Source: an uncultured Oscillospiraceae bacterium (lineage in GTDB: Bacteria; Bacillota; Clostridia; Oscillospirales; Oscillospiraceae). Taken from it: DNA of 37,554 nt. A program made the position numbers and the translations under genes. The stretch's first letter is position 1, and each line of letters starts with the position of its first letter. Location of the stretch: assembly GCA_947628315.1 (NCBI GenBank), contig CANQZJ010000018.1, forward strand, positions 1 through 37,554. The letters are read 5' to 3'. The notes below the pieces were generated by a model. The model did no database searches. It saw only the letters and a program-made list of their open reading frames with translations, and was not told the origin of the DNA. Positions 576-37,554 of the stretch are shown in pieces.

Positions 576-1304
576 TCAGTCATGGCGGGTATCGTCGGTG
601 AACCGCTCGCAGAACCGGGCGGAAAAGGCGGGCGGCTCGCCGTGGGCGTACAGGTGGGAGATGTCGCCGTAGCCGCTCAGCCGGAAGGCGGCGATCCCCT
701 CCCGGCGCTCCTCTGTGACGGCTGTGGTCACCGAGGCGGGGGCGGCGCACAGGCCGTGGAGCAGGGGCATGGGGGACACCCCCAGCAGATGGCTCACAAG
801 CACGGTCTCCACGCCGAAATGGCAGAACAGGACGACGGTATCGTCGTTGGGCCGCGCCGCCCGGTAGAGCCGCCCCTCCCGGACATAGCCGTGGCGGGCC
901 AGGAGGGCGTCCAGCCCCCCGGTCACCCGGTCGTACTCCTCTTTGACGCGGGCCTCCTCCAAAACAGGGTGGCGGTACCACCGGTCGGGCGAGTAGAAAT
1001 CGTCCACCGCCGTCCAGTCCCGGGGCAGCCAGTCCCAGAGGATGCGGCGCTCGCCGCCGGCGTCCGGCCGTAAGATCGGGGCGTGGAACTCCCGGAGCCA
1101 GTCCAGCGTCTCCGCCTGGCGGCCCATGCGCTCCAGGGCGGGCCTGGCGGTGTCCTGGGCCCGGCCCAGCGGGGAGACGTAAAAGGCGGCGATGTCCAGT
1201 TTGGACAGCCGCTCCGCCAGGAGCTCCGCCTCCCGAAAGCCCTTTTCCGTCAGCGAGTCGCGCTCATAGTCCGGGTCGCCGTGGCGGATGAACAGCAGCT
1301 TCAC
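576..1304 (-). CDS. Histidine phosphatase family protein (phosphoglycerate-mutase fold)
   Basis: A 242-residue member of the histidine phosphatase superfamily. The RHG catalytic motif (LLFIRHGDPDY, residues about 4-14) carries the phospho-accepting histidine, SPLGRAQDTA (about 44-53) supplies the phosphate-pocket arginine, and FCHFGVE (about 160-166) holds the second histidine. Translation starts at GTG with AGGGGTGA just upstream; the start lies 4 bases after the gatD-like stop, so coupling is likely. It is longer than minimal cofactor-dependent mutases and has a central insert (about 70-125), so the substrate is not predictable. It could be a sugar-phosphate, nucleotide or phosphoprotein phosphatase. 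Confidence 0.85.
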   Translation of the reverse strand: MKLLFIRHGDPDYERDSLTEKGFREAELLAERLSKLDIAAFYVSPLGRAQDTARPALERMGRQAETLDWLREFHAPILRPDAGGERRILWDWLPRDWTAVDDFYSPDRWYRHPVLEEARVKEEYDRVTGGLDALLARHGYVREGRLYRAARPNDDTVVLFCHFGVETVLVSHLLGVSPMPLLHGLCAAPASVTTAVTEERREGIAAFRLSGYGDISHLYAHGEPPAFSARFCERFTDDTRHD

Positions 1305-1308
1305 GGTC

Positions 1309-2040
1309 TCACCCCTTGATCCGGGCGGACAGCTCCCGCAGGGTGACCGCGTAGCCCTCCCGCTGGTGGGGCTGGGCGGGGACGGTCTCCGGCAGTTCCC
1401 AGCCCTTGGCGGCGAACAGCCGGCGGACGATCAAGTCCAGCAGCTCCGGGTTCTTCACCAGCACCGGGCCGGTGAGGTGGGTGGCGAACACATTGCCGTC
1501 CACATAGCCCTCGGCTCCGCCTTTCGCCTCGTTGCCGAAGCCCAGAGTGAGGCGGTCAAACAGCGGGGTCTTCACCCCGTGGGTGACGGAACACTTGTTC
1601 ATGAAGCCCACCGCCGCCTGTTCCAGCAGCGGGCTGTGGGCGATGACGTCCACCGGATCCCGCCTGTCGCTCTCCACGGTGGTATAGTCGGCAAAGCCCA
1701 GGCCGGGCCACTCTTTGCCCGCCGCGTCGGTGACGGACGCGCCCAGCAGCTCCATGGCATTGCCGGTGAACAGCACCGCCGCGCCGCCGTCGACGGCGGC
1801 TTTCAGCTGATCCGCGTATGGGCGCAGCGCCTCCAGGGCCAGCTTCTGCACCCGCTCGGTGCCGGCGCCCATATAGATGAGGTCGACGCCCTCAAAGCTC
1901 AGCTCATCTTCAAAGACCGCGGTTTTCACCGCCACGGTCACGCCCATGGCCTCCAGCTGCCGGCGGAGGATGGAGACATTGGCGTACTCCCCGTACAGGC
2001 TCATCGCGTCGGGGTACAGGTGCAGGATGTTCAGTTCCAT
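1309..2040 (-). CDS. GatD-like type 1 glutamine amidotransferase lacking the catalytic cysteine
   Basis: A 243-residue protein of the GatD/CobQ-like class I amidotransferase fold, paired with the MurT-like ligase gene 13 bases upstream. Canonical GatD hydrolyses glutamine to feed ammonia to MurT for amidating the D-Glu of lipid II. Here the general fold and the histidine motif THLTGPVLVKNP (His188) are kept. The nucleophile segment, expected as ICGGYQ/FQLLG, reads LFTGNAMELLG (residues 90-100), which puts threonine at about position 92 where cysteine belongs. The only cysteine in the protein is Cys150 (FMNKCSVTHG), elsewhere in the fold. A glutaminase reaction by the usual mechanism is therefore unlikely. 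The start is ATG with an AAAGGGGGGA ribosome site. The symbol gatD is withheld because the function may differ. Confidence 0.8.
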   Translation of the reverse strand: MELNILHLYPDAMSLYGEYANVSILRRQLEAMGVTVAVKTAVFEDELSFEGVDLIYMGAGTERVQKLALEALRPYADQLKAAVDGGAAVLFTGNAMELLGASVTDAAGKEWPGLGFADYTTVESDRRDPVDVIAHSPLLEQAAVGFMNKCSVTHGVKTPLFDRLTLGFGNEAKGGAEGYVDGNVFATHLTGPVLVKNPELLDLIVRRLFAAKGWELPETVPAQPHQREGYAVTLRELSARIKG

Positions 2041-2053
2041 GTCCGTCCCCCCT

Positions 2054-3385
2054 TTAATCCCTCTGGACGTGGGCCAACAGCTTGTCCCGGTCGGAGAAGC
2101 AGGTGACCACGTACAGGGGCAGGTCGCCGGAGCTTTTCAGCTCCTCCGCCGCGGCGGAAATGCTCTCCCGGAGCACGACCTTCTCCGGGGGCACCGCGGT
2201 GTAGTCCAGCCGCAGGGCCAGGTCGTTGACGTACCGGCCGCAGAGCCACACCTTTTTCACCTGAGGGGCGGACAGCCGGTCGAAGTCGATATCCCACAGC
2301 CAGCTGGTCTCGCCGGTGAAATACTTGCGGCTGACGGCGTCCACGATGACCATTACCTCGCAGGGCCCCGGCTGGCTCTCGATATAGCCCAGGTTGGTGT
2401 CGTAGGCCACGGAGTTCTCGTGCTTGGAGGTGAGCAGGGTGCCCTTGCGGGCCCCCAGCGTGAAGGTGATCATCCGGCCGTTCTTCAAAATATAGTTGTT
2501 GATGACCCCGGCCATGGCGGTCTCGTCCACCCCGGCCAGGGCGCAGGCAGACCAGGCGGCCAGGATGTTGTATACATTATATATACTGCGGAAGGCCAGC
2601 TGGATGTCGGTCTTGCCGTCGATGGTGAGCCTGCCGGCCTTCAGATCCACGGCGGTGGCGGTGAAGTCGGTGGCGTGGCGGGCATAGCCGCACCCGGGGC
2701 AGCGGTAGTGGCCGATGTGGGCATAGTGATAGCAGCCGTACTCCATGGGCGCGCCGCACACCGGGCAGCGGGCGCCGTCGTGATACACGCCGTGGTGCTC
2801 TTTCGTGCTGATGGAGCACTCGTCCAGGCCGAACCACCTGACCGTCTCCGGGGCGCGGCCCTGGGCGAACCGGGACACCAGGGGGTCGTCGGCGTTGAGC
2901 ACCAGCGTCGTGTCCGCGTGGAGGGCGGGGAGGATGGCCTGATAGACCCACTCGGGGTGGCCGTTGCGGGTGAGCTGATCCCGGTACAGGTTGGTGATGA
3001 CGAAGTGGGTGGGGTGGAACCACTTGAAGGTGTGCTTCGCCCACCGCTCGTCGCTCTCCAGCAGGAGCACGTCGCCCTTGACCCTGCCGCCTGCGGTGGC
3101 GTTGGTCAGCAGCAGGGTGGCGACCCCCTCGATCTGGTTGGAGCCCTCCTTGTTGTAGACCACCGACCTCCCGGCGGCGGTGAGGATGGAGGCGATCATC
3201 TCCACCGTGGAGGTCTTGCCGTTGGAGCCGGTGACGGCGATGACGTAGGGGGGCAGCTCCAGCCGGCCCAGGATGTCCGGGCACAGGCGCAGAGCGATCT
3301 GCCCCGGCAGGGAGCTGCCCCTGCCGATGAGCTTGCCCACGAACCGCAGGACTTTGCAGGCCGCAATGGCCAGCCGCTTTCTCAT
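2054..3385 (-). CDS. MurT-like Mur ligase family protein (DUF1727-type C-terminus)
   Basis: A 443-residue Mur-ligase relative. It has a short hydrophobic N-terminus, the ATP loop TGSNGKTST (residues 52-60), NLYRDQLTRNG (132-142), LNADDP (163-168) and the MurT-specific zinc ribbon formed by Cys207, Cys210, Cys229 and Cys232. The C-terminal domain has SWLWDIDF (361-368) and LCGRYVNDLALRL, matching MurT. However, the KNPxGxNxxL segment I expect in canonical MurT reads KHENSVAYDTN (321-331), and the loop before SWLWD also differs (VDAVSRKYFTGET). Together with the cysteine-less GatD-like partner this suggests a diverged ligase/amidotransferase pair. The simplest role is still lipid II isoglutamine formation, but a different amidation or ligation is possible. 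Confidence 0.82.
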   Translation of the reverse strand: MRKRLAIAACKVLRFVGKLIGRGSSLPGQIALRLCPDILGRLELPPYVIAVTGSNGKTSTVEMIASILTAAGRSVVYNKEGSNQIEGVATLLLTNATAGGRVKGDVLLLESDERWAKHTFKWFHPTHFVITNLYRDQLTRNGHPEWVYQAILPALHADTTLVLNADDPLVSRFAQGRAPETVRWFGLDECSISTKEHHGVYHDGARCPVCGAPMEYGCYHYAHIGHYRCPGCGYARHATDFTATAVDLKAGRLTIDGKTDIQLAFRSIYNVYNILAAWSACALAGVDETAMAGVINNYILKNGRMITFTLGARKGTLLTSKHENSVAYDTNLGYIESQPGPCEVMVIVDAVSRKYFTGETSWLWDIDFDRLSAPQVKKVWLCGRYVNDLALRLDYTAVPPEKVVLRESISAAAEELKSSGDLPLYVVTCFSDRDKLLAHVQRD

Positions 3386-3410: not shown

Positions 3411-5273
3411 TTATTTCTCCAAAAAGATCATCAGCGCGGCCACGTCCGCCGGGGACACCCCGGAGATGCGGCTGGCCTGGCCGATGTTCAGCGGCCGGAT
3501 CCTGTCCAGCTTCTGCCGGGCCTCCAGCCGCAGGCCCTGGATGGACAGGTAGTCCAGATCGGGGGGCAGGGGCCGATCCTCCAGCCGGCGGAGCTCCTCC
3601 ACCTGGCGGGTCTGCCGCTGGATGTAACCCGCATACTTCACGGAGATCTCCACCTGCTCCGTGATCTCCCGGGAAAGCTGCGGCCGTTCCGGGTCGAAGG
3701 GCGCCAGGTCGGCATAGGCCAGCCGGGGGCGGCGGAGCAGATCGGCCAGGCGCGCGCCGTTGGGGCAGGGCGGCTCGCCCTTTTCCTCCAACAGCCTGTC
3801 CAGCTCCGGGGAGGGGGCCGCCCCGGTGTGCTCCAAGCGATGGATCTCCCCCTCCACAGCGGCGTATTTCGCCTCGACCCGGGCCAGCCGCTCAGCGGAT
3901 ACCAGCCCCACCCGGCGGCCGATGGCGGTGAGCCGCCGGTCGGCGTTGTCGTGCCGGTGGAGGAGGCGGTACTCCGTCCGGGAGGTCATCACCCGGTAGG
4001 GCTCGTTGGTGCCTTTGGTCACCAGGTCGTCGATGAGCACCCCAATGTACCCGTCCATCCGGGTCAGGATCAGGGGCGGCTGGCCTTTGATCTTGAGGGC
4101 GGCGTTCACCCCGGCCACCAGACCCTGGGCGGCGGCCTCCTCGTAGCCGGAGGAGCCGTTGAACTGCCCCGCCCCGTAGAGACCGGGGACTTTTTTGCTC
4201 TCCAGCGTGGGCAGCAGCTCGGTGGGATCCACGCAGTCGTACTCGATGGCGTAGGCGGGGCGGGTCATCTCGGCGTGCTCCAGGCCGGGGATGGTGTGGA
4301 GCATCTGGAGCTGCACGTCCTCCGGCAGAGACGACGAGAAGCCCTGCAGATAGAGCTCCTCGGTGTTCAGCCCCATGGGCTCCAGAAAGAGCTGGTGCCG
4401 GGGCTTGTCGGCAAACCGCACCACCTTGTCCTCGATGGAGGGGCAGTAGCGGGGGCCGACGCCCTCGATCACCCCGGAGAACAGGGGCGAGCGGTGGAGG
4501 TTGTCCCGGATGACCCGGTGGGTGCGCTCGTTGGTGTAGGTGAGCCAGCACGCCGCCCGATTTTCCGGGGAAATGTCGGTGGAATAGGAGAAGGGGGCGG
4601 GGTCGACGTCCCCCTCCTGCTTCTCCATTTTGGAGAAGTCCACGCTCCGCCGGTGGATCCTCGGCGGCGTGCCCGTCTTGAACCGGCGCATGGACAGGCC
4701 CAGATCCCTGAGACAGTCTGTCAGCGCCAGGGCGGCGGCCATGCCGTCGGGGCCGGAGGCGCGGGTGACCTCCCCCACGATGGTGCGGCCCCCCAGATAG
4801 GTGCCGCTGGCCACCACCACGGCCTTGACCTGATAGGTAGCCCCTGTAGCGGTGCGGACGGCGGAGACGTGCCCGTCCTCCGTCAGGATCTCCGTCACCT
4901 CCGCCTGCTTCACCCACAGGTTTTCCTGCAGTTCCAGGGTGTGCTTCATGACCTCCTGGTACCGGCGGCGGTCGGCCTGGGCCCGGAGGGACCACACGGC
5001 GGGGCCCTTGCCCCGGTTCAGCATCCGGTACTGGATGCAGGCTTTGTCGGCGGCCCGGCCCATCTCGCCGCCCAGCGCGTCTACCTCCCGCACCAGCTGG
5101 CCCTTGCCGGTGCCGCCGATGGCGGGGTTGCAGGGCATATTGCCCACCGCGTCCAGGTTGACGGTGAAGCACACCGTTTTCAGGCCCAGGCGGGCGGCGG
5201 CCAGGGCGGCCTCGATGCCCGCGTGGCCCGCGCCGATGACGGCGATATCAAATTGTCCCGCGTCAAAAACCAT
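3411..5273 (-). CDS. mnmG: tRNA uridine-5-carboxymethylaminomethyl(34) synthesis enzyme MnmG
   Basis: FAD-dependent subunit that, with MnmE, builds the carboxymethylaminomethyl group on wobble U34 of several tRNAs. At 620 residues it is full length. The Rossmann FAD motif is [13 protein letters not shown] (9-21); [15 protein letters not shown] and [15 protein letters not shown] are family signatures; the C-terminal helical domain ends with a YAGYIQRQ and [11 protein letters not shown] region that contacts tRNA and MnmE. The gene starts 15 bases after the metallophosphoesterase stop and ends 25 bases before murT. Many Firmicutes keep mnmG beside mnmE and rsmG near the origin; here neither is a neighbour. 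Confidence 0.97.
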
Positions 5274-9141: not shown

Positions 9142-9192
9142 ACGCACTCAGGCCGGGGCGACCCCGGCGAGAAAGAAAAGGAGTGTGTCACA

Positions 9193-9438
9193 ATGAGTAT
9201 TTCCACCGTAGCCATCAACAAACAGCCCAACCTCCAGGACGCCTTTTTGTCCTCCGCCCGCCGCATGGCCGCCCGCGTCACCGTGTTTTTGATGAACGGG
9301 TACCAGCTCCGGGGCGTCATCACCGGGTTCGACCCCTATGTGGTGGTGGTCGTGTCCGACGGTAAGCAGCAGATCATCTACAAGCACGCCATCTCCACCA
9401 TCACCCCGGAGCACCCCCTGACCATCGACGAGGGCTGA
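9193..9438 (+). CDS. hfq: RNA chaperone Hfq
   Basis: An 81-residue Sm-like hexameric RNA-binding protein that pairs small RNAs with mRNAs. Sm1 (NLQDAFLSSARR...VTVFLMNGYQLRG) and Sm2 (IIYKHAISTITP) are clear, with the proximal-site YKH intact. Compared with E. coli, the rim patch RRER reads RRMA, so two rim arginines remain and one is lost; distal-face Tyr25 is Phe and Lys31 is Gln. The C-terminal tail is only about ten residues. The ribosome site is AAGGAGTG. A candidate hairpin over the next gene's start (9464-9483) lies directly downstream. Confidence 0.96.
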   Translation: MSISTVAINKQPNLQDAFLSSARRMAARVTVFLMNGYQLRGVITGFDPYVVVVVSDGKQQIIYKHAISTITPEHPLTIDEG

Positions 9439-9463
9439 CCGCCCACCCTTAGACAGAGAACCC

Positions 9464-9483
9464 GTGGAAAGGTCTGATTCCAC
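9464..9483 (+). promoter_or_regulatory. Small hairpin over the ribosome site of the HlyD-like gene
   Basis: A perfect inverted repeat GTGGAA-N8-TTCCAC ends on the base before the TTG start at 9484. The purine-rich GGAAAGG that should recruit the ribosome is split between stem and loop. It could lower initiation, but a six-pair stem may also be chance. Confidence 0.35.
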
Positions 9484-10758
9484 TTGAAAGAGAGCAAACT
9501 GACCCAAAAAGTGCTGGTCGCCCTGCTGTGCGCCGGCGTCATCCTCTATTTGGCCGTGTACATCTTCCAGGCCCTGCGGAGCGACCTGGTCACCACCGTC
9601 GCCTACGCCTATACCCAGAGCGTGGGCGTGCAGGGCCGCGGGCTGGTGGTGCGGGAGGAGTCCGTGCTGCCCGGCGCCAACGGCTATCTGGATCTGATCC
9701 TGAGCGAGGGGGAGCGGGCCGCCGCCGGCGACGCGGTGGCGCTGTTCTACAGCGACCCCTCCGCCCTGTCCATCCGGCAGGAGATCCGCTCTCTGCAGTC
9801 GGAGATCGAGCAGCTTCAATACGCCCTGAACGCCAGCGCCGCCGGCACGGCGGACGCCGCCGCCCTGGACGACCAGATCGTGGACGCCATCGTGGAGCTC
9901 CGCTCCCAGTCCGCCGCCGGCGACCTGTCCGGCCTGGACGCCGCCGCCCTGTCCCTGCGCACCACCGTGTTCCGCCGGGCCTACATCTTTGAGGACGCCG
10001 CCGCCGGACAGCTGAGCCGGCTCATCGCGGACAAGCAGTCCCGGCTGGCGTCGCTGAACCAGTCCATGGGCCAGGTGTCCCAGACGGTCTACGCCCCCTG
10101 TGCCGGCGTGTTCTCCGGCGAGACCGACGGCTGGGAGGATGCGGCGTCCCCCGCCATGCTGGACGGCCTCACCGCGGAACAGCTGGCCGGTCTGCTGGAC
10201 GAGAAGCGCTCCGGGGACGGCACCGCCGCCGGCAAACTCATCACCGGCTCCACCTGGTACTTTGCCGCCCTGCTGCCCGCGGGCAACCCCGGTCTGGCGG
10301 AGGGCAGCACCTACCGCCTCTCCTTCACCGACGGCTGGTATCAGGAGATCGCCATGCGGCTGGAGCGGCTGGAGGTGGGGAACGACCAGACCCTGGCCAT
10401 CTTCTCCGCCCGCAGCGCCCTGTCGGAAACCACCCTCCTGCGGGTGCAGACGGTGGACATCATTCTGGACGAGATCGAGGGCATCCGCGTCCCCCGGCGG
10501 TCGCTGGAGGTGCGCACCGTGGCGGAGGAGCAGAAGGACGAGAACGGCAATGTCACCGGCACCAAGGACGTCAACCACTACTATGTATACACGGTGGTCA
10601 GCTCCCAGGCGGAGGAGCAGGAGGTCAGGGTGGCGTACACCGCCGACACCTATTACCTGGTGCGCCCGGTGGACGAAAACGCCCGGGATCGCCTCCGCCC
10701 CGGCGACGAGCTGATCCTGAACACCGCCGGCCTGTTCGACGGAAAGGTGGTGCGCTGA
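9484..10758 (+). CDS. HlyD-like single-pass membrane protein (ylmE/sepF-linked)
   Basis: A 424-residue protein starting at TTG with GGAAAGG upstream. One membrane segment (about 9-30, VLVALLCAGVILYLAVYIFQAL) anchors an extracytoplasmic region laid out like HlyD/membrane-fusion proteins: a lipoyl-like half (GRGLVVREESVLPGANGYLDLILSEGERAAAGD), a coiled-coil hairpin (about 100-195) and a second beta-barrel half (YAPCAGVFSG and onward). Such proteins are often found before ylmE-sepF in clostridia. There is no adjacent ABC exporter or outer membrane, so a plain efflux-adaptor role is doubtful; a scaffold at the division site is one guess. Its stop overlaps the next ATG by one base (TGATG). Confidence 0.75.
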   Translation: MKESKLTQKVLVALLCAGVILYLAVYIFQALRSDLVTTVAYAYTQSVGVQGRGLVVREESVLPGANGYLDLILSEGERAAAGDAVALFYSDPSALSIRQEIRSLQSEIEQLQYALNASAAGTADAAALDDQIVDAIVELRSQSAAGDLSGLDAAALSLRTTVFRRAYIFEDAAAGQLSRLIADKQSRLASLNQSMGQVSQTVYAPCAGVFSGETDGWEDAASPAMLDGLTAEQLAGLLDEKRSGDGTAAGKLITGSTWYFAALLPAGNPGLAEGSTYRLSFTDGWYQEIAMRLERLEVGNDQTLAIFSARSALSETTLLRVQTVDIILDEIEGIRVPRRSLEVRTVAEEQKDENGNVTGTKDVNHYYVYTVVSSQAEEQEVRVAYTADTYYLVRPVDENARDRLRPGDELILNTAGLFDGKVVR

Positions 10759-31818: not shown

Positions 31819-32997
31819 ATGAAAAAGCGTATCCTCGCCATGCTGTTGGCCCTGGTGCTGGCCCTGGGCCTCGCCGCCTGCGGCGCCGCGCGGCCGCAGG
31901 ACAGCGCCGCCCCCTCCGCCGCCCCTGACGCCACGGCGGATCCCGGCGCCTCCGCCGATCCCTCTGCCGCCCCCTCTGCCGGGGTCACCGACATCCCGGT
32001 GGATCTGACCCGGAACGTGGTGGAGTTCTCCGCCGGCCTGAGCCCCGACGACGTGGTGCTCACCGTCAACGGGGAGGATATCACCGCCGACCTGTACTGC
32101 TATCTGCTGTTCTCCGCCTGTGCCAACCTGGAGAGTCAGTATTACTACTACACCGGCAGCACACTGCCGGATCTGTCCTTGTATTCAGACCTTCTCAGGG
32201 ACGACGTGGAGGATATGGCCGTCAACTACACCGTTCTCCGGCAGAAAGCCGATGAGCTGGGCGTGCCCCTCACCGACGGGCAGCTGGCCGACGCCCAGGC
32301 CACCCTCGCCGACGGCGGCACCTCCGAGGTATACAAAAACGCGTTCGGCTTCACCGACGCGTCCCTGGATTTTGTCTCCACCATCGACTTTTATTACGAT
32401 AACGTGCTGTCCACCATCCCCACCCCCACCGACGAGGAGCTGAACAACTACGTCTATCAGGTAAAGCACATCCTGCTGGCCACCATCGACACCTCCACCC
32501 AGGAGCCGCTGGACGACGCCGTCATCGCCGAGAAAAAGGCCCTGGCGGAGGACATCCTGTCCCAGCTCCGGGCCCTGGAGGGCGAGGAACAGCTGGCCAG
32601 GTTCGACGAACTGATGAACGAGTACAGTGAAGATCCCGGCCTGGCCTCTGAACCCGACGGCTATGAGTACACCATAGACGACCCCCTGGTGGACGGCTTC
32701 ACCGAGACCGCCCTGGCCCTCAAGCCCGGCGAGATCTCTGACATCTTGGAGACCTCCTTCGGCTATCACATCCTCCTCCGGCAGGAGCTCCAGTTCCGCG
32801 ACGAGACCAAAGAGAACTATCAGGACGACCTCCGGGCCCGGCAGCTGCAGGGCATGATGGACGGCTGGGCGGCCGAGGCAGAGACCACCCGCGCGGACGC
32901 TTTAGCCTCCATGGATCTGGCGGATTTTTACGATAAGTACAACGCCCATTACAACGCCTACTTCGAGGACAGGAACGGCGTGGAGGCCGTGGGCTGA
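31819..32997 (+). CDS. PrsA-like peptidylprolyl isomerase lipoprotein
   Basis: A 392-residue secreted foldase. Signal peptide and lipobox are MKKRILAMLLALVLALGLAAC (Cys21 lipidated), followed by an Ala/Ser/Pro/Asp linker to about residue 55. A SurA-like N-terminal helical part (about 75-210; VLTVNGEDITADLYCYLL) leads to a parvulin domain (about 215-320) with VKHILLAT, FDELMNEYSEDPG, LKPGEISDILETSFGYHILL, then a helical tail. Such proteins fold exported proteins outside the membrane. It is placed after mfd, as parvulin genes often are in clostridia, with its own promoter and a strong terminator. Confidence 0.9.
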   Translation: MKKRILAMLLALVLALGLAACGAARPQDSAAPSAAPDATADPGASADPSAAPSAGVTDIPVDLTRNVVEFSAGLSPDDVVLTVNGEDITADLYCYLLFSACANLESQYYYYTGSTLPDLSLYSDLLRDDVEDMAVNYTVLRQKADELGVPLTDGQLADAQATLADGGTSEVYKNAFGFTDASLDFVSTIDFYYDNVLSTIPTPTDEELNNYVYQVKHILLATIDTSTQEPLDDAVIAEKKALAEDILSQLRALEGEEQLARFDELMNEYSEDPGLASEPDGYEYTIDDPLVDGFTETALALKPGEISDILETSFGYHILLRQELQFRDETKENYQDDLRARQLQGMMDGWAAEAETTRADALASMDLADFYDKYNAHYNAYFEDRNGVEAVG

Positions 32998-33014
32998 CCC
33001 CTCGACCGCTTTTT

Positions 33015-33046
33015 GACCCATCCGCGTACGCGGATGGGTCTTTTTT
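33015..33046 (+). terminator. Terminator after the PrsA-like gene
   Basis: A 26-base full palindrome GACCCATCCGCG-TA-CGCGGATGGGTC followed by TTTTTT. Confidence 0.95.
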
Positions 33047-33089
33047 GTTCTGCCTGTCCCTTCCCGTCTTTTCGACGCTCCGCCCCCGC

Positions 33090-33095
33090 TATAAT
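33090..33095 (+). promoter_or_regulatory. -10 element for the P-type ATPase
   Basis: A perfect TATAAT 25 bases before the ATG. No convincing -35 at 16-18 bases; the nearest candidate TTCGAC is too close. Confidence 0.4.
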
Positions 33096-33119
33096 GGGAT
33101 GGATAAAGGAGTGTTTGCC

Positions 33120-35744
<2,625 letters not shown>

Positions 35745-35765
35745 TCCGCCCGTTTTGCGAGATCC

Positions 35766-35793
35766 GGCGCCTTTCCCCGGGAAAACGCCTTTT
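35766..35793 (+). terminator. Weak terminator after the P-type ATPase
   Basis: Imperfect stem GGCG..TTTCC / GGAAA.CGCC with CCG loop and a small bulge, followed by TTTT. It sits just before the thiolase promoter. Confidence 0.55.
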
Positions 35794-35798
35794 CCCTG

Positions 35799-35827
35799 TT
35801 GATTTTTTACCCGTTCCATTATATAAT
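35799..35827 (+). promoter_or_regulatory. Promoter for the thiolase gene
   Basis: TTGATT (35799-35804), 17-base spacer, perfect TATAAT (35822-35827). TTGGAGG (35861-35867) is the ribosome site for the ATG at 35875. Confidence 0.88.
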
Positions 35828-35874
35828 TGAAATGTTGAGCACCCCCTCATGAAAAAAATATTGGAGGTCAAACC

Positions 35875-37128
35875 ATGAAAGACATCTACGTAGTGAATTG
35901 CTGCCGTACCGCCGTGGGCTCCTTTGGCGGCTCTCTGAAGGACGCCCCCGCCGCCGATCTGGGCGCCGTGGTCGTCAAGGAAGTGCTGAACCGCGCCGGC
36001 GTGAAGCCCGAGCAGGTGGACGAGCTGATGTTCGGCTCCATCCTCACCGCCGCCCAGGGCCAGAACGTGGCCCGGCAGGTGAGCATCAAGGCCGGCCTGC
36101 CCTACTCCGTCCCCGCCTACACCGTGGGCATGGTCTGCGGCTCCGGCATGAAGTCCGTCATCGAGGGCGCCCGCGCCATCCTGGCCGGCGACGCCGACAT
36201 CGTGGTGGCCGGCGGCACCGAGAACATGAGCGCCGCCCCCTACGCCCTCCCCACCGGACGTTACGGCGCCCGGATGGGCCACACCCAGATGATCGACACC
36301 ATGATCAAGGACGGCCTCTGGGACGCCTATAACAACTACCACATGGGCACCACCGCCGAGAACATCTGCGACATCTGGGGCATCACCCGCCAGGAGCTGG
36401 ACGAGTTCGCCGCCGCCTCCCAGCAGAAGACCGAGGCCGCCCAGGCCGCCGGCCGGTTCGACGACGAGATCGTCCCCGTCACCGTCAAGGTGAAGAAGCA
36501 GGAAGTGGAGTTCAAGAAGGACGAGTTCCCCCGGGCCGGCGTCACGGTAGAGAGCATCTCCAAGCTCCGCGGCGCCTTCCCCGTTCTGCCCGAGACTCCC
36601 GAAGTGGTGCACACCTTTGAGCCCACCGAGATCCACCCGGAGGACACCAACAAGAACGTGCAGCGGGTCACCGCCGCCAACGCCTCCGGCATCAACGACG
36701 GCGCCGCCGCCATCCTGCTGGCCTCCGGCGACGCGGTGGAGAAGTACGGCCTGAAGCCCATGGCCAAACTGGTCAGCTGGGGCCAGGGCGGCGTGGATCC
36801 CAAGATCATGGGCGTGGGCCCCGTGCCCGCCTCCCGCGCGGCCATGAAGAAGGCCGGCCTCACCATCGAGGACATCGACCTGGTGGAGGCCAACGAGGCC
36901 TTTGCCGCCCAGTCCGTGGCCGTGGCCCGCGAGCTGCACTTTGACATGAGCAAGGTCAACGTCAACGGCGGCGCCATCTCCCTGGGCCACCCCGTGGGCG
37001 CCTCCGGCGCGCGGATCATCGTCACCCTGCTCCACGAGATGCAGAAGCGGCCCGAGGCCAAGAAGGGCCTGGCCACCCTGTGCATCGGCGGCGGCATGGG
37101 CGTCGCCACCATCTTCGAAAAGGTGTAA
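35875..37128 (+). CDS. Acetyl-CoA C-acetyltransferase (thiolase)
   Basis: Condenses two acetyl-CoA to acetoacetyl-CoA, the entry step of butyrate or beta-oxidation-type pathways in these anaerobes. The protein has 417 residues against about 393 for typical members. The nucleophile is Cys88 in MVCGSGMKSV; the second and third active residues are His372 (SLGHPVGASG) and Cys403 (LCIGGGMGVA). The extra length comes from a 24-residue insert between KLRGAF and VTAANASGINDG (about 246-272). Codon choice is very biased to G/C-ending codons and the promoter is strong, both consistent with high expression. No other butyrate gene is in the window, so the pathway is inference. Confidence 0.95.
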   Translation: MKDIYVVNCCRTAVGSFGGSLKDAPAADLGAVVVKEVLNRAGVKPEQVDELMFGSILTAAQGQNVARQVSIKAGLPYSVPAYTVGMVCGSGMKSVIEGARAILAGDADIVVAGGTENMSAAPYALPTGRYGARMGHTQMIDTMIKDGLWDAYNNYHMGTTAENICDIWGITRQELDEFAAASQQKTEAAQAAGRFDDEIVPVTVKVKKQEVEFKKDEFPRAGVTVESISKLRGAFPVLPETPEVVHTFEPTEIHPEDTNKNVQRVTAANASGINDGAAAILLASGDAVEKYGLKPMAKLVSWGQGGVDPKIMGVGPVPASRAAMKKAGLTIEDIDLVEANEAFAAQSVAVARELHFDMSKVNVNGGAISLGHPVGASGARIIVTLLHEMQKRPEAKKGLATLCIGGGMGVATIFEKV

Positions 37129-37156
37129 TTCCGCAAAACTTCCCGGAAATGACAAG

Positions 37157-37190
37157 AGGCCCCCGGACGATATGTCCGGGGGCCTGTTTG
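37157..37190 (+). terminator. Terminator between thiolase and the convergent right-edge gene
   Basis: 12-pair stem AGGCCCCCGGAC / GTCCGGGGGCCT with GATAT loop, followed by GTTTGTTG. It lies between two converging genes and may serve both. Confidence 0.85.
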
Positions 37191-37193
37191 TTG

Positions 37194-37554
37194 TTATAGT
37201 CCCAGCTTTGCCCGGACGATTTGCAAATTCTCCGGGGCGCTCAGATCCACGGTGGACGACACCCGCGCGGCCAGCTTCCCCGCCCGGATCACCAACACCC
37301 GGATGGCCTTTCCGCCGCCGTCGTTCGCCTGTCCCAGCCAGGCCCCGTCCGCCCAGTCCAATTCCACGGGCTCCAGCTCCGCGCCGCCGTAGATCTGCAC
37401 CAGCCGCCTCTCCCCGGTGGAGTAGTCCCGGTCGGTCAGGGGGATGGCGGTCTCCCGGATCAGCCCCGCCGCCGTCTGCTCCGCCAGCCACCGGCTCCGG
37501 CAGTCGTACCGCTCGCAGGACAGCCGGTCTCCCAGGGCGCCGGCGCTGATCCCG
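37194..37554 (-). CDS. Unrecognised protein, C-terminal 119 residues (start beyond window)
   Basis: An open frame enters from the right edge and stops at TAA 37194-37196. The visible 119 residues begin GISAGALGDRLSCERYDCRS and end LQIVRAKLGL. It has mixed charge, no membrane segment, two cysteines near the visible start (CERYDC) and strands such as AIRVLVIRAGKLAARVSSTVDL. Codon use matches its neighbours and the frame extends through the ATG-less edge, so it is probably real. I do not recognise the family and make no functional claim. A shorter GTG start at 37400 is internal. Confidence 0.65.
   Translation of the reverse strand, partial: GISAGALGDRLSCERYDCRSRWLAEQTAAGLIRETAIPLTDRDYSTGERRLVQIYGGAELEPVELDWADGAWLGQANDGGGKAIRVLVIRAGKLAARVSSTVDLSAPENLQIVRAKLGL

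Follow-up and report, generated by a model that had tools for sequence, protein, structure and literature searches.

A stretch of 37,554 nucleotides from an uncultured Oscillospiraceae bacterium (assembly GCA_947628315.1, contig CANQZJ010000018.1, positions 1 to 37,554; C18 in our numbering), in the following called the window, carries two adjacent genes on the minus strand whose products belong to the MurT/GatD clan by fold and homology. The murT-like gene (2054..3385; 443 amino acids; Pfam Mur_ligase_M and MurT_C) encodes a Mur ligase subunit that is predicted to be active, and the gatD-like gene (1309..2040; 243 amino acids; Pfam GATase_3) encodes a putative pseudo-glutaminase subunit. The pair belongs to class II, subtype IIa (KHENS), of two classes of MurT/GatD proteins that we describe here: the loss of the catalytic cysteine in GatD and the insertion of residues into a loop of MurT track one deep split of MurT. 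An original prediction from the window had presented a single odd pair; the pair is indeed real, but it is a member of a large clan, and the loss in its GatD is more complete than had been claimed. The reading that we favour, if tentatively, is that GatD of a class II pair does not hydrolyse glutamine and that MurT amidates the alpha-carboxyl of D-glutamate with free ammonia.

The assignment to the clan rests on the GatD fold and on the similarity to the proteins of solved complexes: phmmer matches the window MurT to 6fqb_A with 4.4e-54 and the window GatD to 5n9m_A with 4.5e-22, and the fold of the murT product is that of MurT. Both proteins miss the NCBIfam equivalog cut-offs, which may partly reflect the taxon scope of these models (GatD with 81.3 of 400 and 95.2 of 450 bits, MurT with 203.4 and 181.6 of 800 bits). 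All features described below are on the minus strand, and published work is cited from the parts of the articles available to us.

The GatD half lacks the catalytic residues of the glutaminase

Residues of the window GatD were mapped by a gapless HMMER alignment with S. aureus GatD, repeated in two MAFFT alignments. The nucleophile elbow of S. aureus GatD reads T92-I93-C94-G95-G96, and the variants C94A, H189A and R128A are inactive (PMC5871853). At the corresponding position the window protein has the stretch LFTGNAMELLG (1741..1773), with Gly93 (1762-1764) in place of the catalytic Cys94. The original prediction had a threonine replacing the nucleophile: the cysteine is lost, but the assignment was one residue off, as Thr92 (1765-1767) precedes the Cys position and aligns with Ile93 of S. 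aureus. This is consistent with the AlphaFold model (mean predicted local distance difference test score (pLDDT) 95.6, predicted template modelling score 0.93), which has a strand at residues 88-92 and a helix at 93-99, with the elbow expected at the boundary of the two. Thr92 was rejected as a nucleophile on the grounds of both the alignments and the model.

The block THLTGP (1465..1482) had been taken for a retained histidine block, on account of His188. This did not withstand the alignments: the catalytic His189 of S. aureus GatD corresponds to Thr190 (1471-1473) of the window protein, and His188 of the window protein to Tyr187 of S. aureus, so that both residues of the dyad are gone. The oxyanion hole is altered as well: Gly60 of S. 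aureus GatD (for its role see PMC5871853) is replaced by Ala59 (1864..1866) and Gly95 by Asn94. One residue of glutamine binding is retained, Arg127 (1660..1662), the counterpart of the glutamine-capturing Arg128.

The same pattern is found across the 68 scored subtype IIa proteins. The column of the catalytic cysteine is Gly in 67 and Ser in one; the column of the catalytic histidine is never His (0/68), with Thr190 varying to Ile, Ser, Ala or Leu in 26. Among the class I rows that have the cysteine (97, two reference proteins included), the histidine is kept in 95 and the remaining two are gaps. Tyr17 is retained in all IIa proteins and Arg128 in 67/68, and there are two acidic gains, Glu97 in place of Gln98 and Asp131 (Asn in most of class I). 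The one cysteine of the window protein, Cys150, lies away from the nucleophile position, as the original prediction had said, and the elbow itself is free of cysteine. The suggestion that Cys150 could serve as an alternative nucleophile fares badly and was rejected, as the residue is not conserved across the subtypes (47/68 IIa, 2/35 IIb and 0/17 IIc).

In S. aureus, the GatD variants C94G, C94S, C94A and H189A and the MurT variant D349N have their glutaminase or glutamine-dependent activity abolished or severely reduced (PMC5871853, PMC6113224, PMC3266927). As the Cys, the His and the oxyanion Gly of GatD and, as described below, the triad Asp of MurT are all replaced, hydrolysis of glutamine by the known mechanism is very unlikely.

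The MurT half keeps its core and has remodelled loops

The ATP loop and the zinc ribbon of MurT are kept, in agreement with the original prediction: the P-loop reads GSNGKT (3212..3229), with Lys in the column of S. pneumoniae Lys59 in 67/68 IIa proteins and a gap in one, and all four cysteines of the Cys4 ribbon (2690..2767) are present in 68/68. In S. pneumoniae numbering, Lys59, Asn85, Glu110, Asp112, Glu113, Arg135, Asp136 and Arg140 are kept in 67/68 IIa proteins (one gap), and Arg304, Lys321, Asn322, Asp361 and the four ribbon cysteines in all 68. Subtype IIa thus has the features of a Mur ligase: the P-loop Lys, the acceptor Asn, the Mg-binding acidic residues and the hinge Arg. Replacements of Lys59, Asn85 or Asp112/Glu113 in S. 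pneumoniae MurT left 1-3% of the activity, and replacement of Trp360 abolished the interaction with GatD (PMC6085368); the Trp360 column is Trp in 64/68 IIa proteins and Tyr or Phe in four. The MurT half is hence predicted, from its residues, to activate a carboxylate with ATP.

The two changes that had been noted in MurT are both real. The motif KHENSVAYDTN (2393..2425) is the KNP loop with two inserted residues, His322 and Glu323 (K-HE-NS). The second changed loop, SRKYFTGE (2309..2332), carries the position of the aspartate that MurT contributes to the catalytic triad, Asp349 in S. aureus and Asp355 in S. pneumoniae (PMC6113224, PMC6085368); in the window MurT this position is Glu359. The triad column is Asp in all 97 class I rows with Cys, and in IIa it is Glu in 64/68 and Asp in 4/68, so that the acidic character is kept. 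The negative gate is described as Glu201, Asp355 and Asp361 (PMC6085368), and IIa keeps acidic residues at the latter two positions. In the putative ammonia-channel loop NLYRDQLTRNGH (2957..2992; role proposed in PMC6085368), Asp136 and Arg140 are kept, and Asp139, Phe141 and Glu143 of S. pneumoniae are Thr, Asn and His in the window MurT. In the AlphaFold model of MurT, loops 137-141 and 353-360 have a pLDDT below 50. Near the end of the gene, a TCFSD motif (2090..2104) is nearly invariant in IIa and differs in class I.

Two classes of MurT/GatD proteins

MurT/GatD loci were collected from three samples. In the order sample of 295 genomes, 77 had a MurT match at E 1.8e-26 or better, and 71 of these were read (G065, G125, G177, G205, G207 and G320 were left unread): 18/71 have the Cys, the His and the KNP loop, and 53/71 have KHENS or another inserted loop. 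All 52 GatD proteins read beside the inserted-loop MurTs lack both Cys and His (no GatD could be read at L067). The class sample comprised 392 genomes, of which 207 have MurT, and the phylum sample 398 genomes, of which 137 have MurT; from these 137, 30 loci plus 20 stretches were taken. The class and phylum loci were picked partly for low scores, and totals over all loci are thus not prevalences. Three loci gave neither MurT nor GatD (L040, L175 and L309), and nine gave MurT with no GatD read (L067, L180, L239, L269, L295, L305, L306, L311 and L312).

We distinguish class I, with Cys and His in GatD and a KNP loop in MurT, from class II, with neither Cys nor His in GatD and an insertion of one or two residues in the loop. 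Of 224 scored rows (the two reference proteins included), 97 have no insertion and the Cys, four have no insertion and no Cys, 68 are IIa, 35 IIb and 17 IIc, and three belong to the family f116; these labels are partly rule-based, as Asn at the triad column is part of the rule for IIc and Cys part of the rule for class I, and f116 was set apart by hand. None of the 120 rows with a scored loop insertion has the Cys.

The same division is found in trees of MurT from which the loop was removed; the trees are unrooted and come from a quick search, with long branches flagged and near-identical and short rows removed. In the tree with the loop columns removed (112 rows), one branch with a Shimodaira-Hasegawa-like approximate likelihood ratio (SH-aLRT) of 99 sets 74 class II rows apart from 36 rows with Cys and two without; in the tree with the phylum rows, from which the triad column was removed too (111 rows), a branch with SH-aLRT 99 has 56 class II rows on one side and 50 rows with Cys and five without on the other. 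Cys loss and loop insertion thus track one deep split of MurT. That both halves had diverged together, as originally proposed, is borne out: a single branch sets apart the inserted-loop rows, the GatD partners of which all lack Cys. We infer that class I is ancestral.

The five rows without Cys within the class I clan are separate losses; four have an unchanged length of the KNP loop and the fifth is L301. The four (L143, L144, L307 and L310) are apparently independent losses of the GatD cysteine and natural counterparts of the C94 mutants. L301 is one of three f116 proteins (L301-L303, from G713, G792 and G848), the GatD of which has Gly for Cys and keeps the His. Their MurT is damaged: Asn85 is Asp or Glu, Asp112 is Lys or Ser, Asp136 is Glu and Arg304 is gone. 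By known chemistry, both halves of the f116 pair look inactive. The loop of f116 is hard to align and was scored as no insertion, though K-EA-NS can be read as one. G755 (L300), of the same family, has a canonical pair.

Conservation of the pair

Named bacterial and archaeal genomes were scanned with 22 MurT proteins of the KHENS type, which gave at least 595 pattern matches, with at least 534 encoding relatives; 80 were kept. Among these are Pseudoflavonifractor sp. An85, metagenome-assembled genomes (MAGs) of Candidatus Enterenecus, Flavonifractor sp. An82, An112 and AGMB03687, and Oscillibacter valericigenes An890. Of the 80, 78 allowed both genes to be read, and all 78 combine Gly at the Cys position with the KHEN loop; the original prediction had proposed to look in homologues for a co-occurrence of Thr92 and KHENS. 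Of the 186 loci that carry both murT and gatD, 184 have them side by side on the same strand, with some genomes counted more than once. The ratio of nonsynonymous to synonymous substitutions (dN/dS, method NG86) is about 0.12-0.43 for gatD in 10/10 pairs and about 0.14-0.38 for murT in 10 pairs. With the residues kept, the genes adjacent and dN/dS well under 1, the pair is expected to form a functional complex and not to be a decaying copy. As the activating residues of MurT are kept and both genes remain side by side, each under purifying selection, GatD has the look of a pseudo-glutaminase that is retained as a partner.

Subtypes of class II and their distribution

Subtype IIa has the KHENS loop and invariant Ser352, Arg353, Tyr355 and Thr357. 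IIb is the remainder by rule and not a clade; its loops are KGQNP, KDRNA and similar, and its triad position is Asn in 20/35 and Asp in 11/35. IIc has a loop of the type KQENP[ED]T, Asn at the triad position in each of the 12 proteins that represent 16 loci, and a GatD in which both Arg128 and Tyr17 are replaced (17/17 each).

Among the loci read, no genome combines class I with IIa or IIb (G340 and G462, with two MurT_C matches each, are outside these loci), as would be expected if the two have alternative jobs on the same carboxyl. Three genomes have two pairs: G615 (L141, L181) has IIc and class I, and G571 (L161, L182) and G645 (L160, L184) have IIc and IIb. That IIc shares genomes with another pair suggests that it does a separate job. 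Three genomes of the window genus, G018, G004 and G029 (L036, L038 and L039), carry IIb instead of IIa, and no better GatD match was reported for them. This suggests that either subtype can take the place of the other.

A second, canonical pair, for which the original prediction had advised a search, was not found in the window genome (G000; a MAG with 76.8% completeness): there is one MurT_C match only, and the only other GATase_3 match is partial with 26.7 bits. Likewise, G010, of the same genus and listed as 100% complete, and the single-contig genome G138 have only weak partial matches besides their own GatD. At L180 (G642) there is a MurT-like gene with a KNTAG loop and Ala at the position of the negative-gate Asp361, and with no GatD found in the 6.4 kb retrieved.

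Possible functions of the class II pair

In the mechanism that we tentatively favour, an intact two-subunit MurT/GatD complex would form, in which the GatD half would no longer hydrolyse glutamine and would be retained as a structural partner that MurT requires. With ATP, MurT would activate a carboxyl group, most probably the alpha-carboxyl of D-glutamate in the lipid-linked stem peptide. Amidation of the activated group would most likely draw on free ammonia from solution and not on ammonia made in GatD. There is a precedent in S. aureus: MurT with GatD C94G lost glutamine-dependent amidation, with the NH3-dependent amidation of lipid II at pH 8.5 unaffected, and MurT without GatD was inactive (PMC3266927). 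With its conserved, dead GatD, class II comes close to being the natural equivalent of this mutant. Ammonia as donor, with GatD as an obligate partner, is the most economical reading. From the options listed in the original prediction (free ammonia, another nucleophile or a different substrate), ammonia or another amine is possible, and a threonine nucleophile drops out.

Several points weigh against free ammonia as donor. The S. aureus precedent needed pH 8.5, and at pH 7.5 neither NH3 nor NH4Cl worked (PMC3266927). His322, Glu323, Ser352, Arg353, Tyr355 and Thr357 are strictly conserved in IIa, for which there is no obvious need with ammonia as donor; these new invariants sit in loops near ATP and the opening that faces GatD (loop roles from PMC6085368). 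The invariant loops of IIa and IIc differ, which hints at different ligands, and GatD may still bind a ligand, as IIa retains Arg128 and Tyr17, the residues with which class I captures or gates glutamine. A search for the peptidoglycan chemistry of the relatives' genera found none, and the table seen in one review has no entry for Oscillibacter or Ruminococcus (PMC11382707).

These points lead to an alternative that we consider unlikely but worth serious attention: the group that class II attaches to the alpha-carboxyl of D-glutamate would come from an amine other than ammonia or from an amino acid such as glycine or a D-amino acid, with the remodelled C-terminal loops of MurT binding the donor and the pseudo-glutaminase closing the site or binding part of the nucleophile. 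It would account for the invariant two-residue insertion of IIa and the new invariant polar residues in loops of the C-terminal domain, although the loops of class I are equally invariant and use ammonia, so that invariance by itself does not discriminate. In MurE, the C-terminal domain contacts the lysine of the ligand (PMC6085368), and the DNADD motif, linked through the backbone to Asp349, has been discussed as a proposed lysine-engaging element (PMC6113224); by our own alignment, this stretch corresponds to SRKYFT in IIa. The acidic residues Glu97 and Asp131 of GatD, together with the retained Arg128 and Tyr17, would suit such a donor, and the distinct invariants of IIa and IIc and the genomes with both IIb and IIc (G571 and G645) would fit different nucleophiles. 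Glycine or D-serine is occasionally found linked to the alpha-carboxylate of D-Glu (PMC11555704).

LpxC, taken as a sign of an outer membrane, is present in 89/398 genomes of the phylum sample, and 13 of the 89 have a MurT_C match. The best-known adduct of D-Glu is the cadaverine or putrescine of Negativicutes, and it gives no support to another amine as donor: all nine LpxC-positive genomes that were read from these 13 carry a GatD with Cys (the His column of L286 is a gap; G830, G837, G909 and G1041 are unread). By this indirect test on nine genomes, a diamine ligase by analogy to Negativicutes is not supported.

A wider claim can be built on such a donor, which we regard as doubtful: class II would be an unrecognised clan of two-subunit stem-peptide ligases, with a pseudoenzyme GatD and a new nucleophile pocket in MurT, so that Oscillospirales and other Clostridia would carry undescribed, subtype-specific substituents on the alpha-carboxyl of D-Glu.

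It is improbable that the pair acts on a carboxylate other than that of D-Glu in lipid II or serves as a regulatory sensor of amino acids. IIc occurs beside class I in G615, and at least IIc may therefore be non-redundant, and the three f116 proteins lack catalytic residues of MurT; however, the catalytic MurT residues that were checked are kept in IIa, the fold is that of MurT, and no genome among the loci read has IIa beside class I. Far less probable still is the hydrolysis of glutamine by GatD with an unusual nucleophile (Thr92, Thr190, Cys150 or water): the glutamine-capturing Arg128 and Tyr17 are retained, but the elbow is Gly, the His and the oxyanion Gly are absent, and both Cys150 and Thr190 vary within IIa. 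A decaying pair of pseudogenes or an assembly artefact, for which only the incompleteness of the window MAG could be quoted, is refuted by conservation: all 78 readable named relatives share the motifs, dN/dS is well under 1 and the fold is predicted with confidence.

Comparison with known systems

The MurT/GatD lipid II isoglutaminyl synthases of S. aureus, S. pneumoniae and S. pyogenes (PDB 6gs2/6h5e, 6fqb and 9sq9/9sqj) differ from the window pair in both halves: the window GatD is without Cys94, His189 and the oxyanion Gly60, and the window MurT has Glu for Asp349/Asp355, the two-residue insertion in KNP and SRKYFT for the ADG stretch. As the Cys, the His and the triad Asp are not found, the pair should not be filed as a glutamine-hydrolysing lipid II isoglutaminyl synthase. 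It resembles the engineered S. aureus complex of MurT and GatD C94G in having Gly at the nucleophile position and, as shown in S. aureus and presumed here, in requiring a dead GatD; in contrast to the engineered complex it is natural, is also without the His and the oxyanion Gly and has a remodelled MurT (PMC3266927). The MurT-like proteins of pseudomurein archaea are likewise MurT relatives without an active glutaminase partner, but according to the available part of PMC11915815 there is no GatD homologue in these archaea, whereas here GatD is retained and conserved. Unlike MurC-MurF and pMurC, which add amino acids, the window MurT is partnered with a subunit of the GATase fold, and it lacks the usual N-terminal domain, as has been stated for MurT (PMC6113224). 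A literature search, with most subscription journals outside its reach, found no published description of a Cys-less GatD or of class II.

Automatic annotation is likely to label such genes as glutamine-hydrolysing lipid II isoglutaminyl synthase. Inferences about the stem peptides of these gut Clostridia would be wrong if class II makes no use of glutamine, or if D-isoglutamine is not its product; MurNAc-L-Ala-D-isoglutamine (MurNAc: N-acetylmuramic acid) is the minimal motif recognised by NOD2 (PMC11382707). A dead glutaminase that evolution has kept across a whole clan, the natural counterpart of the engineered C94G complex, lets one ask for roles of GatD besides the making of ammonia, and there is a real chance that class II stands for new cell-wall chemistry.

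Genomic context

The window genome has 2.69 Mb. The pair is part of a closely spaced run on the minus strand that consists of mnmG (gidA; 3411..5273, directly upstream of murT), murT, gatD and a gene of the histidine phosphatase family (576..1304, directly downstream of gatD); the two flanking genes were labelled by Pfam and are context only. Elsewhere in the window, three long minus-strand open reading frames (9148-10578, 32958-35126 and 35638-37491; 476, 722 and 617 amino acids) match no Pfam family at E 0.001; each of them overlaps long open reading frames on the opposite strand and may not be a gene.

The 80 named loci were searched for three neighbours, namely mnmG, the histidine phosphatase and a metallophosphatase. 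A blastp match to the histidine phosphatase (E 1e-15) is found beside the pair in only two of the 80. The metallophosphatase is present in 52/80, in none of them on the same strand within 1.5 kb. MnmG is present in 61/80, with some of the loci too short to show it, and in 58 it lies on the same strand and within 1.5 kb of murT.

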